From Albidovulum inexpectatum (GTDB taxonomy: Bacteria > Pseudomonadota > Alphaproteobacteria > Rhodobacterales > Rhodobacteraceae): a DNA stretch of 64,000 nt. A program made the position numbers and the translations under genes. The notes beneath the pieces were generated by a model. That model made no database searches, had not been told where the DNA came from, and was given only the letters and a program-made list of their open reading frames with translations. Below, piece after piece: positions 4,999 through 54,885 of this stretch. The stretch is from assembly GCF_002927635.1 (NCBI RefSeq), contig NZ_PRDS01000002.1, positions 310,001 through 374,000 on the forward strand. The letters are read 5' to 3'. The first letter of the stretch is position 1; each line of letters begins with the position of its first letter.

Positions 4999-7404
4999 TC
5001 AGTGCGCGGTTGCAATCGCCTCGGCGGCGCGTTCGGCCGCGGCGGCTTTCGCGGCCGCCTCTTCGGCTTCGGCGTCCCACTCGATCGGCTCGGGCATCCG
5101 AACCAGAGCGTGCTTCAGAACCTCGCGCACATGGCTGACCGGGATGATCTCCAGGCCCTGCTTCACGTTCTCGGGGATCTCGGCCAGGTCCTTTTCGTTT
5201 TCCTTCGGAATGAGGACCGTTTTGATCCCGCCGCGCAGAGCGGCCAGCAGCTTCTCCTTCAGCCCGCCGATGGCCAGCACGTTACCCCGCAACGTGACCT
5301 CGCCGGTCATCGCGATGTCCTTGCGCACGGGAATGCCCGTCAGCACCGAGACAATCGACGTCACCATCGCAACGCCTGCCGAAGGCCCGTCCTTGGGCGT
5401 GGCGCCCTCGGGAACGTGGACGTGGATGTCGATCTTCTCGAACAGGGTCGGCTTGATCCCGATCTCGGGGCTGATCGCCCGGACGAAGCTCGACGCCGCG
5501 TCGATGGATTCCTTCATCACGTCGCCCAGCTTGCCGGTGGTCTTCATCCGCCCCTTGCCGGGCAGCTTCAGCGCCTCGATCGACAAGAGGTCGCCGCCGA
5601 CGCTCGTCCAGGCCAGGCCGGTGACGACACCCACCTGATCCTCCTGCTCGGCCAGACCATAGCGGTACTTCTTCACCCCCAGGAACTCTTCCAGGTTATC
5701 CGGCGTGACGACGACCTTGTCGGTCTCCTTGCGCACGATCCGCGTCAAGGCCTTGCGGGCCAGCTTGGCAATCTCGCGCTCGAGGTTCCGAACACCGGCT
5801 TCGCGGGTGTAATGGCGCACGATCGCCATAACCGCTTCATCCGTGACCGAGAATTCGCCCTTCTTCAGACCGTGGTTCTTGACCTGCTTGGGGATCAGAT
5901 GCTGCTTGGCGATCTGCAGCTTCTCATCCTCGGTATAGCCGGCCAGCGGGATGATCTCCATCCGGTCCATCAGCGGCTCGGGCATGTTATAGCTGTTGGC
6001 CGTCGTGACGAACATCACATCCGACAGGTCATATTCGACCTCCAGGTAGTGATCGACGAAGCTCGAGTTCTGCTCGGGGTCCAGGACCTCAAGCAGGGCC
6101 GAAGCCGGATCGCCGCGGAAGTCCTGACCCATCTTGTCGATCTCGTCCAGAAGGATCAGCGGGTTCGTGGTCTTGGCCTTCTTCAGCGCCTGGATGATCT
6201 TGCCCGGCATCGAGCCGATATAGGTCCGCCGGTGGCCGCGGATCTCGGATTCATCCCGCACGCCGCCCAGGCTGATGCGGATGAACTCGCGCCCCGTGGC
6301 CCGCGCCATCGACTTGCCAAGGCTGGTCTTGCCGACGCCCGGGGGGCCGACAAGGCACAGGATGGGACCCTTCAGCTTGGCCGAGCGCTGTTGCACGGCC
6401 AGATACTCGACGATCCGCTCCTTGACCTTTTCCAGGCCATAATGATCCGCATCCAGGATCTGCTGCGCGCGCGACAGGTCTTTCTTGACCCGGCTCTTGA
6501 CCCCCCAGGGCAGGCTCAGCAGCCAGTCCAGGTAGTTGCGCACGACCGTGGCCTCGGCCGACATCGGCGACATAGAACGCAGCTTCTTCAGCTCGGCCTC
6601 GGCCTTTTCGCGAGCCTCCTTCGAGAACTTGGTGTTCTTGATCTTCTCGGCCAGCTCGTTCAGCTCGTTCTGGTCGTCGCCATCTCCCAGCTCGCGCTGG
6701 ATGGCCTTCATCTGTTCGTTCAGATAATATTCGCGCTGCGTCTTCTCCATCTGGGACTTGACGCGCGACTTGATCTTCTTCTCGACCTGAAGGACGCTCA
6801 TCTCGCCTTCCATCAGGCCATAGACCTTCTCAAGCCGCTCGGCGATGTCCAGCGTCTCCAGCAATTCCTGCTTCTGCGCGACATCGACACCCAGATGCCC
6901 GGCCACAAGGTCGGCCAGCCGCGCGGGATCGGTGGTTTCCGACACGGCCGACAGGGCCTCTTCGGGCACGTTCTTCTTGATCTTGGCGTAGCGTTCGAAA
7001 TCCTCGCTGACGGTACGGACCAGCGCCTTCATCACCGCCGGGTCGCCGGGCTTTTCTTCCAGCTTCTCGATCTCGGCCTCGAAGAACGAAGGATTTTCCA
7101 GGAACCGGGTGATGCGAACGCGCTCACGCCCCTCGACAAGCACCTTGACGGTGCCGTCAGGCAGCTTCAGCAACTGCAATACATTGGCCAGAACGCCGGT
7201 CTTGTAGATCCCGTCAACGGTCGGGTCGTCCTGCGTCGGGTCAACCTGCGAGGACAGCAGGATCTGCTTGTCCTCGCGCATGACCTCTTCCAGCGCCCGC
7301 ACGGATTTCTCGCGGCCGACGAACAGCGGCACGATCATGTGCGGGAACACCACGATATCGCGCAGGGGCAATACCGGGTAACTGGTGGATTTTGCTTCGT
7401 TCAT
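4999..7404 (-). CDS. lon: ATP-dependent protease Lon
   Basis: Lon degrades misfolded and regulatory proteins in the cytoplasm as a homohexameric AAA+ serine protease. The 801-residue protein has the N-terminal substrate-binding domain starting [15 protein letters not shown], Walker [10 protein letters not shown] (about residue 353), Walker [11 protein letters not shown], and a C-terminal protease domain with the catalytic Ser in DGPSAGVAM (about 677) and Lys in [13 protein letters not shown] (about 720). Length is close to E. coli Lon (784). Longer in-frame starts exist, but [10 protein letters not shown] at 7404 has AAAGGAAA at good spacing and aligns with known Lon starts. It has its own promoter and ends facing the tRNA block. 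Confidence 0.97.
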
Positions 7405-7475
7405 GTGCGTTTCCTTTCGCGCAAGAGAGTTCCGGCCCCATTCCCGGCAGCCATTGCTCTCTCCGGTTTGGAACA

Positions 7476-7504
7476 TAGTTAGGCGTCCTTGCCGGCCGGT
7501 TCAA
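7476..7504 (-). promoter_or_regulatory. Predicted promoter for lon
   Basis: On the minus strand TTGAAC (7504-7499), a 17-bp spacer and TAACTA (7481-7476) leave a 5' leader of about 65 nt before the lon ATG. TTGAA at -35 is also compatible with an RpoH-type heat-shock promoter, but the -10 is not a clear RpoH match, so sigma-factor use is open. Confidence 0.45.
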
Positions 7505-7617
7505 CCATGCAAAGCCACTCACGTTTTCGTGCCGACCACAATCTGCAGGGGCATGAAACACGCCGGCCACAAGATCAGCCATGCAGCCAAGCCCTTCACA
7601 AGCGCCTTGCCGCAGGA

Positions 7618-8304
7618 TCAGATCAGACCATGGGCAACGGCGGTCGAGACAGCCTGGCTGGCGGTCTTGGCGCGCAGCTTTGCCTTAGCAGACTTGATGC
7701 GCTGCTTGATCGCGCCATCCGTGACACCCAGCTGCGCCGAGATTTCCTTGATCAGCTGGCCCGACCGCATCATCCGCAACACCTCGATCTCGGCCTCGGT
7801 CAGGTTGGTCGGGGGCGCGGTCAGTTCATGCAGCTTGCGCAGCCGCGACTCCAGCTGATGGATCTCTTCGTCGGTGAACTCGCGATCCGACCGCGCAAAG
7901 GAACCAAAGCTGCGCTGGCCTTCAACGCCGGTCGAAGGCAACGAAATGGCAACACCATAGCGCAACCCGAATTTCTGAGCCTGCATCATGACCCGGCGCG
8001 GGTCCGGCAGTCTCATCTCGCTCCACCTGGTCCAACCGAAATTCGAATAGACCCAGCGCATCACCGGGTCCTGGAACATGAACCCCTCTCGCGTGTACAG
8101 ATCCACCCACCCGTCCGGCAGGGCATTGTGTTCAGCCACCGGAAAGGCAAACCCCACCCGCAGAGCGATATAGAACCCTGCCGGCGCCAAGGTACGAAAT
8201 GCGGCCCTGCCTTCAGGGTTGTTCATGAAAGGTTCATTTTCAGCATCTGCGCGCGCCTGATCCAACTGCAGCTCAAGGTTGTCTAGCTTCCGAGCATATG
8301 CCAT
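7618..8304 (-). CDS. LuxR-family regulator (AHL-binding plus HTH domains)
   Basis: This 228-residue protein has an N-terminal autoinducer-binding domain (about 30-160) and a LuxR/GerE HTH (about 165-225, LTEAEIEVLRMMRSGQLIKE). The six residues conserved in AHL receptors are present with canonical spacing: W66, Y70, D79, P80, W94 and G117. It should therefore bind an acyl-homoserine lactone or similar ligand and DNA. No luxI-type synthase is in the window, so locally it is a LuxR solo. Its start is 36 bp from that of a divergently transcribed sister lacking the HTH. The chosen ATG lacks a clear Shine-Dalgarno sequence (the leader is pyrimidine-rich), but later ATGs would cut into the domain. 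Confidence 0.9.
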   Translation of the reverse strand: MAYARKLDNLELQLDQARADAENEPFMNNPEGRAAFRTLAPAGFYIALRVGFAFPVAEHNALPDGWVDLYTREGFMFQDPVMRWVYSNFGWTRWSEMRLPDPRRVMMQAQKFGLRYGVAISLPSTGVEGQRSFGSFARSDREFTDEEIHQLESRLRKLHELTAPPTNLTEAEIEVLRMMRSGQLIKEISAQLGVTDGAIKQRIKSAKAKLRAKTASQAVSTAVAHGLI

Positions 8305-8340
8305 GGGGAGGAGTTAAGAAAGGGTTGTGGACTGTGCAAG

Positions 8341-8826
8341 ATGACAAGTGGTGAAAGTGTCAGTGCAATACTGAAACGGCTGCATGTGGCAAGCCCGTCC
8401 GGTTTCGCGATCGGCTTGCACATCACCTATACGACACCGCGCTACATGTTTCAAAGCTATCCGCGCGAATGGCTGGACGCCTATTCGCGCCAGGGTCTGC
8501 TGATGCGGGATCCCACGGTGAACTGGGGCTTCGCCAATCGCGGCTGGGTCCGCTGGTCGGCTTTGGCCAACGACGATCCCGACGGCGTCATGCGCATGGC
8601 GGCCGAACACGGCATCAATTTCGGCGTGGTCATCTCGACACTGCGCGGCGGCAGCCGCACCATTGCAAGCTTTGCGAGGCCTGAACGCGAATTCACCGAT
8701 GACGAGATCGCCGCCATCGAAGAGGATCTGGGCCGCCTGCATGATGCGACGCTGAAAGCGCCGTTCCTGTCGCCCAGCCTGCATGAAATGCTGCGCCAGA
8801 TGTCGATCTACCTGACGCATGGCTGA
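8341..8826 (+). CDS. Stand-alone autoinducer-binding domain protein (no HTH)
   Basis: A 161-residue paralogue of the adjacent LuxR protein that contains only the ligand-binding domain. W44, Y48, D57, P58, W72 and G95 occupy the same positions and spacing as the AHL-contact residues of LuxR/TraR. The shared FARxxREFTDxEI segment shows common ancestry with the neighbour. The frame closes cleanly and tgt begins 11 bp later, so there is no HTH remnant downstream. HTH-less LuxR proteins such as TrlR of Agrobacterium inhibit their full-length partner by heterodimerisation; a similar role here is inference. The ATG has only a distant AAGAAAGGG (about 16 bases upstream). Confidence 0.88.
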   Translation: MTSGESVSAILKRLHVASPSGFAIGLHITYTTPRYMFQSYPREWLDAYSRQGLLMRDPTVNWGFANRGWVRWSALANDDPDGVMRMAAEHGINFGVVISTLRGGSRTIASFARPEREFTDDEIAAIEEDLGRLHDATLKAPFLSPSLHEMLRQMSIYLTHG

Positions 8827-8837
8827 GACCATCTTTT

Positions 8838-9968
8838 CTAGATTGGCTCGATGTCGCCTTCGGCGCGCAACCGGTGGAATTCTGACACAAAGGCATCCAG
8901 CCGGCCTTCGGCGATGGCATCGCGCAGGCCCTGCATCAGTTCCTGATAATAGTGCAGGTTGTGCCAGGTCAGCAGCATGCCGCTGATCATTTCGCCCGCG
9001 CGAAAGACGTGGTGCAGATAGGCGCGGCTGTAGTTCCGGCAGGCCGGGCAGGTACAGTCTTCGTCCAGCGGCCGGGGGTCATCGGCATGGCGGGCATTCT
9101 TGATGTTGACCTGGCCGCGCCGCGTCCACGCCTGGCCGGTGCGCCCCGACCGCGTAGGCAGAACGCAGTCCATCATGTCCACCCCGCGCTGGACCGCGCC
9201 GACGATATCGTCGGGCTTGCCGACCCCCATCAAATAGCGCGGCTTGTCGGCCGGCAGCATCTGGGGCGCATAGTCCAGGACGCCGAACATCGCCTCCTGC
9301 CCCTCGCCCACGGCCAATCCGCCGATCGCGTAGCCGTCGAAACCGATGACCTTCAGCGCCTCGGCCGATTCCTCGCGCAGCTCGCGATTGACACCGCCCT
9401 GCTGGATCCCGAACAACGCATGTCCCGGCCGGTCGCCAAAGGCAGCCTTTGACCGCTCGGCCCAGCGCATCGACAAGCGCATCGCGCGGGCGACCTCCTC
9501 GTCCGGCGCGGGCAAGGCGGGGCACTCATCGAAACACATGACGATGTCCGAGCCCAGAAGGCGCTGGATTTCCATGCTGCGCTCGGGCGTAAGCACGTGT
9601 TTCGACCCGTCGATGTGGCTGGAGAAGGTTACCCCCTCCTCGGTCAGCTTGCGCAGGGCGGCAAGGCTCATGACCTGAAAGCCGCCCGAATCCGTCAGAA
9701 TGGGGCCATGCCAGTTCATGAACTTGTGCAATCCGCCAAGCCGCGCGATGCGTTCGGCCGTGGGGCGCAGCATCAGATGATAGGTGTTGCCCAGGATGAT
9801 ATCGGCCCCCGTGGCCGCCACGCTTTCGGGCAGCATTGCCTTCACGGTCGCCGCGGTGCCGACGGGCATGAAGGCCGGCGTGCGGATCTTGCCGCGCGGC
9901 GTCGTTATGACGCCGGTGCGCGCCTTGCCATCGGTGGCACGAAGCTCGAATGTAAATGCGCTGGTCAT
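8838..9968 (-). CDS. tgt: tRNA-guanine transglycosylase (queuine tRNA-ribosyltransferase)
   Basis: Tgt swaps guanine-34 for preQ1 in tRNAs with GUN anticodons (Asp, Asn, His, Tyr), the first tRNA-bound step of queuosine synthesis. The 376-residue product shows [11 protein letters not shown], the general acid/base region [11 protein letters not shown], the catalytic Asp in [13 protein letters not shown] and the zinc site [16 protein letters not shown]. Length and motifs match the bacterial enzyme. AGAGG lies about eight bases before the ATG. No other queuosine gene (queA, queF and so on) is adjacent. The gene converges on the HTH-less LuxR paralogue. Two tRNA-Asp(GTC) substrates are encoded 5 kb away. 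Confidence 0.97.
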
Positions 9969-54085: not shown

Positions 54086-54885
54086 TCGGGCTGATCGGCA
54101 AAGCGCATCTCGATCCGAGCGCATTCGCCGCGCGCGATTTCACGCGCTAGACGCGAACGCACGACCCAGTCGCGAAGGCGACGGGTCCAGGGGCGCGGCA
54201 TCTCGGCCAGACGTTCCGCCCGTCGCTGGGGGACGATGTCGGAGCTGAACCCTGCGATGTCATGCAAGACAGGTGCGGGATTGATGAAACCCGGCCGCAG
54301 CAGGCGAAAGCCCAGATTGGCCTCGCGACCGAACAGGGCGTGATCGACCGGAACCGCAAGTCGCGGAAATCGCTGACACATCAGCGCTGCGCCCTGGGGC
54401 GAAATCGCATAAGCCGCCGTTCCCAGGAACGTACTGCGCAGACGATACAACCGCATGCCCCAAGGCAGATCGGCCATGACACGCCCCGCGACGAACCGGC
54501 GGCTGTTCTGGGGGCCGGGCCAGTATTCCAGCTTTATCGCCCCCATGTCGTGTTCGCGCATCATGCGCCCCAGGTCCAGCCGCACGATTTCCGCAAACGC
54601 CGGGGACAACCGGGCATCGTCCTCCAGAATGATCGCCGGCGCACCCTCATCGGCAATTCGTAGCCAGATCGACTGGTGGGTCAGCGTGCAGGCAACATCC
54701 CCAAGCGTTGCGGGAAAGTCGCGCGCAAGCGCCCCCGCGTCAAAGCGGCTGCGCAGGACTTCCCCTTCCCTGCTCGCATCCACGGCCTCGATGCGCCGCG
54801 CTTCAAGCCCCAGTTCGGCAAGCTGCGCGGACATGAATGCCCATCGATCGGACCGGCGGCCAAGATTGATGACGTAAAGGCGCAT
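54082..54885 (-). CDS. Family 25 glycosyltransferase (LPS-type)
   Basis: A 267-residue Glyco_transf_25 protein: MRLYVINLGRRSDRWAFMSA at the N-terminus, TLTHQSIWLRIADEGAPAII with the DxD-like ILEDDARLSP, and GTAAYAISPQGAALM. Family members often add galactose in LPS or capsule synthesis; the substrate is not defined here. ATG at 54885 is chosen because the family starts just there, although a longer open frame exists upstream. Tail-to-tail with prfC. Confidence 0.88.
   Translation of the reverse strand: MRLYVINLGRRSDRWAFMSAQLAELGLEARRIEAVDASREGEVLRSRFDAGALARDFPATLGDVACTLTHQSIWLRIADEGAPAIILEDDARLSPAFAEIVRLDLGRMMREHDMGAIKLEYWPGPQNSRRFVAGRVMADLPWGMRLYRLRSTFLGTAAYAISPQGAALMCQRFPRLAVPVDHALFGREANLGFRLLRPGFINPAPVLHDIAGFSSDIVPQRRAERLAEMPRPWTRRLRDWVVRSRLAREIARGECARIEMRFADQPD

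Follow-up and report, generated by a model that had tools for sequence, protein, structure and literature searches.

Two adjoining, divergent genes for LuxR-type proteins in a 64,000-nucleotide stretch of Albidovulum inexpectatum DNA (contig NZ_PRDS01000002.1, positions 310,001 to 374,000; hereafter the window) are, as judged from sequence comparison, the CerM/CerN pair of this bacterium. One of them, the long gene, encodes a full LuxR regulator (CerM type), while its partner, the short gene, encodes a relative that lacks the helix-turn-helix (HTH) DNA-binding domain (CerN type). We put at about 0.75 the probability that the two proteins operate here as a switch of the kind described for Cereibacter sphaeroides, in which the short protein, once loaded with acyl-homoserine lactone (AHL), would take the long protein off its DNA. 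The pair is real and old, and very probably functional.

The orthology is drawn from a tree of the ligand domains in which CerM falls among the long proteins (support 100/99), CerN falls among the short ones (support 97/84) and GtaR forms a third, separate group; a larger tree again puts CerM firmly inside the long clade and leaves CerN, which sits on a long branch, without a resolved position among the short proteins. The sampled genome that we take as C. sphaeroides 2.4.1 (G051) has luxR and luxI domain scores close to those in Table 2 of PMC11655674 and carries the expected W57F. Its pair resembles the one in the window in that a long and an HTH-less protein of low mutual identity are encoded next to each other, divergently, and with their pocket residues kept. 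The surroundings differ, however, since cerR-cerI follows the long gene in C. sphaeroides whereas the window pair occupies a site between lon and tgt with no synthase next to it, and so does the long protein itself: CerM combines W57F with a K-A-R recognition helix, whereas W57 and K-Q-R are found here, the latter also in most relatives. Among long-type loci W57F occurs solely at two of Cereibacter type (L126, L162) and is a trait of these loci rather than a defining mark of the pair. GtaR of the GtaR/GtaI system (Rhodobacter capsulatus and relatives) comes from a LuxR clade near to both window proteins and has a copy, together with its luxI, in the same genome, yet unlike the short protein it possesses an HTH.

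Both open reading frames that had been predicted at 7618-8826 are present, and Pfam assigns Autoind_bind (56.5 bits, cut-off 23) and GerE (31.6 bits, cut-off 23.5) to the long protein and Autoind_bind (60.5 bits) to the short one, in which the same scan detects no HTH domain. This upholds the original prediction that only one of the two has an HTH, as well as its claim that both share six pocket residues, for W57, Y61, D70, P71, W85 and G113 are retained in each. Its description of all six as AHL contacts goes too far for P71 and G113, which in TraR are conserved structural positions and not strict ligand contacts. Because 58 of the 63 short relatives and 60 of the 67 long ones have all six positions intact, the match is not due to chance. 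The two window proteins are 39% identical across 140 residues and in sequence searches of solved structures both match SdiA, RhlR, QscR, CviR and TraR. AlphaFold models predict for the long protein a ligand-binding domain followed by a four-helix HTH domain (predicted local distance difference test, pLDDT, 91) and for the short protein (pLDDT 88.6, from an alignment of 39 relatives) a fold like the ligand-binding domains of SdiA, RhlR, TraR and LasR, with residues 145-160 modelled at low pLDDT as one weakly predicted helix where the first HTH helix would sit. In short proteins of this type (L010, L012, L050-L088) HTH helix 1 and the remainder of that domain are replaced by a tail, L-x-x-(M/L)-S-(I/V)-x-x-T-H, whose loose pattern fits 37 of 63 members. 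A subgroup (L175, L178, L181, L187) stops within about 10 residues of the ligand domain and is devoid of the LSIxxTH-like tail, which is therefore dispensable in some lineages.

To judge how widely the pair occurs, a long-protein profile, chosen to avoid the bias of searching with the short one, was run against 296 genomes of the Rhodobacteraceae family, about one per genus, and the 60 best-scoring places (in 57 genomes), all above the onset of GtaR-type scores, were kept. The short gene adjoins the long gene at 56 of these 60 loci, the four without it being G085, G292, G107:C17 and G024, which answers the question, raised with the original prediction, whether the pair is conserved together. 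Conversely, with the short protein as query, a long LuxR gene is adjacent at 29 of the 30 best loci, and the remaining match is an ordinary LuxR of 205 residues. In 293 high-quality genomes of the order, a full-length short protein was found at an E-value of about 1e-55 or better in 49, plus lower-scoring CerN types. The pair is divergent in nearly all loci examined. Gene orders across 67 loci comprise short/long-luxI, divergent (43 loci), long gene, luxI and short gene all on one strand (3), short/long-CerR(-CerI) (7), short/long without a synthase (10) and the long gene alone (4). Hence the pair is old and widespread in the family and no oddity of the A. inexpectatum genome. The authors who described CerN compared three other species, among which synteny was conserved only for gtaR (PMC11655674). 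One genome of our sample (G107) carries three long-type loci (L083, L170, L171); the short gene is missing from one of these, and the module may have spread or been duplicated there.

This conservation refutes, to within a residual probability close to nil, the notion that the short gene is a duplicate that has been truncated, has lost its function and is decaying. Absence of the HTH and the faster divergence of the short protein (mean identity 43% vs 55% for the long one) might be taken as signs of decay, but it is intact at 63 loci, keeps the pocket invariants, goes back to a single ancient origin and has a conserved tail in many members. Distances among short and long proteins are correlated (r 0.57), albeit not above the values obtained with luxI (0.53, 0.56), and we therefore read the correlation as common inheritance rather than as evidence of contact. 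A short protein that acts as a signal sponge or separate sensor, lowering free AHL or targeting another LuxR protein (e.g. one that is GtaR-like) instead of its neighbour, would be in keeping with its intact AHL pocket and with the other LuxR proteins of the genome. We hold this to be improbable, as the coupling to one partner gene is so tight and persists where luxI has been lost or replaced; moreover, a cerM mutation is the only one that suppresses the loss of cerN in C. sphaeroides, and it does so by removing cerM function (PMC11655674).

What an AHL-dependent switch would look like is known from C. sphaeroides, where CerM binds DNA without AHL, CerN requires AHL to act, CerM pulls down CerN solely with AHL present, and CerN plus AHL removes CerM from DNA both in electrophoretic mobility shift assays and in an Escherichia coli reporter (PMC11655674). 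Loss of cerN or cerI stops Fla2 motility unless cerM is also lost (PMC11655674), and CerM/CerN feed into the CckA-ChpT-CtrA pathway. By orthology we infer AHL-dependent pairing and release from DNA for A. inexpectatum, too. Here, when little signal is present, the long protein would occupy its DNA sites; the short protein would bind AHL first and, thus loaded, would pair with its long partner by way of the ligand-domain surface that both have in common; the resulting dimer, with one DNA-binding domain only, would then leave the DNA. As a switch, the unit would let AHL shut the CerM regulon off or free genes that it represses. The surface that serves for pairing, the AHL involved and the set of target genes are likewise proposals arrived at by inference. 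The A. inexpectatum genome contains a ChpT gene, so that at least a portion of the pathway acting downstream of CerM/CerN is present.

Several observations weigh against such a direct transfer from C. sphaeroides. Given its long branch, the exact place of CerN within the short clade is unsure. Furthermore, as W57 is kept here and in nearly all relatives whereas CerM has F, which its authors suggested as a possible cause of the weak AHL response of CerM (PMC11655674), the long protein in the window may bind AHL well itself. It may also control genes other than those of CerM, since the recognition helices differ and the CerM-site pattern TNT(N5)AAGACA(N2)T occurs in the whole genome at chance level only (3 matches vs 4 for the reversed control); the single exact match in the window (54258-54274) falls within a coding region and agrees with chance frequency. 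No conserved palindrome could be established in divergent regions of the type found here, as an open palindrome search of 39 of them yielded no motif beyond that seen in shuffles. TGTC-N6-GACA with one mismatch did turn up in 7 regions vs 1.6 expected, but we discount this excess because the motif was chosen after the sequences had been inspected.

A different mode of action would be one modelled on TrlR, in which the long protein would need AHL to bind DNA and activate and the short one would trap it in its AHL-loaded form in dead dimers and so set a threshold. In favour of it are the complete set of six pocket residues (W57 included, unlike in CerM) in the long protein and the usual tandem of long gene and own luxI in relatives, which is like that of classical activators. 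Nonetheless we regard it as rather unlikely, because CerM, the sole orthologue that has been tested, binds DNA without AHL (PMC11655674). Also, according to the account of TrlR given there, TrlR is 88% identical to TraR, an activator requiring AHL, and blocks it (PMC11655674). So, although TraR/TrlR and the window pair alike consist of a full LuxR regulator countered by an HTH-less relative, TrlR is a recent near-copy of its target, while the window proteins are 39% identical and fall into separate ancient clades, i.e. they are ancient paralogues. TrlR is an analogue only. The original prediction of a TrlR-type antagonist encoded beside its target thus holds for the kind of protein, given the orthology with CerM/CerN, but probably not for the mechanism, which by orthology would be that of CerN.

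In most relatives the long gene is followed by a dedicated luxI. The order lon-luxI-luxR-short-tgt is seen in Defluviimonas (L010, L011, L161; two records, with L161 in the genus of the window) and lon-luxI-luxR-short at L012; lon orthologues flank L010-L012, L051, L053, L069 and L161, and tgt orthologues flank L010, L011, L050, L051, L053, L069 and L161. A tblastn search of the 213-bp lon-luxR gap in the window for a luxI remnant gave none, just short alignments at chance level. The order lon-luxR-short-tgt without luxI recurs in G010, from the same genus, and in G276, which is more distant, and in G281 lon-luxI and luxR-short-tgt are carried by two different contigs (L050, L129), which suggests that a rearrangement split the ancestral locus. 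The dedicated luxI genes form a distinct group to which neither luxI of the A. inexpectatum genome belongs. With luxI retained at the same lon/tgt site in Defluviimonas and neither genomic luxI in the dedicated group, the sequences indicate that loss of the synthase is secondary in the lineage of the window. Mere relocation of luxI was considered and rejected, for a profile of the triad LuxI matches just GtaI and, weakly, a CerI-like protein in the genome. The lack of a nearby synthase, noted with the original prediction, is no defining mark of the pair but a secondary loss in this lineage. In another relative (L052) the luxI-luxR-short triad lies between the adenylosuccinate lyase gene and fliG. 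This fits the 'D topology' luxRI locus of Roseobacter, which is flanked by fliG and adenylosuccinate lyase in the survey by Cude and Buchan (PMC3824088), whereas the window pair has lon and tgt for flanks and has lost luxI. The text consulted in that survey, figures aside, makes no mention of an HTH-less gene (PMC3824088).

The genome assembly (3.0 Mb, 27 contigs) encodes five Autoind_bind proteins and two LuxI proteins, both away from the window pair, so that the earlier statement of no synthase nearby is right for the locus (the gap and its immediate surroundings) yet not genome-wide, and the luxI search it called for returned two genes, neither from the dedicated group of the locus. One luxI lies at C5:16 kb beside a GtaR-like gene. 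The other is CerI-like (C5:199506-199997; L008, L127); no CerR-like gene was detected in the 13 kb that surround it, nor any GtaR-like gene beside it. Since the lineage has lost the luxI that once stood between lon and luxR, AHL for the switch would have to come from these two other LuxI proteins or from neighbours; the orphan CerI-like synthase could supply it, and the pair is probably a secondary solo that listens to other synthases. Two more LuxR solos of 261-263 residues, mutually very similar, are encoded at C2:84812-85285 (L002) and C13:32015-32500 (L001), distant from both luxI genes.

The features are listed in Table 1. For the long gene an alternative ATG exists at 8304, 26 codons upstream of that at 8226, which would give a protein of 228 residues. 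Most relatives of the long protein have 202 residues, which agrees with ATG 8226 and not 8304, and their divergent start-to-start distance is about 93-196 bp. On the basis of this conserved length, 8226 is the likelier start, and a distance of 114 bp between the two starts is accordingly likelier than the 36 bp previously proposed.

Table 1. Genes and intervals at the luxR pair (window positions; strand as + or -)
Feature	Position	Strand	Description
Long gene (luxR, CerM orthologue)	7618..8226	-	Autoind_bind + GerE; 202 aa from ATG 8226
Short gene (HTH-less LuxR type, CerN orthologue)	8341..8826	+	Autoind_bind alone + C-terminal tail; 161 aa
Divergent intergenic region	8227..8340	.	114 bp if the long gene begins at 8226
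lon-luxR gap, empty of luxI	7405..7617	.	213 bp; Defluviimonas relatives hold the dedicated luxI at this site
lon protease gene, flank	4999..7404	-	Open reading frame open to 7476; flank common to relatives
tgt, tRNA-guanine transglycosylase gene, flank	8838..9968	-	Flank common to relatives

Earlier examples of an HTH-less LuxR antagonist were TrlR and, in just one species, CerN, and while the kind was described in 2024, our findings add its breadth, the usual third gene (luxI) and the loss of the latter at the window locus. The pair occurs in about one fifth of the sampled genera of the family, with the antagonist gene nearly always adjoining that of its target. To our minds, the balance tips slightly towards a view of receptor, HTH-less antagonist and dedicated luxI as a single old quorum-sensing module of the family, with the antagonist among its regular components, from which some lineages, including that of the window, have dropped or swapped the synthase and so moved from self-sensing to listening, with both partners still binding AHL. 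Loci with their own synthase, with a swapped one (Cereibacter type) or with none (the window) make up a natural series that would allow tests of circuit behaviour in which the antagonist stays constant while the source of the signal changes.
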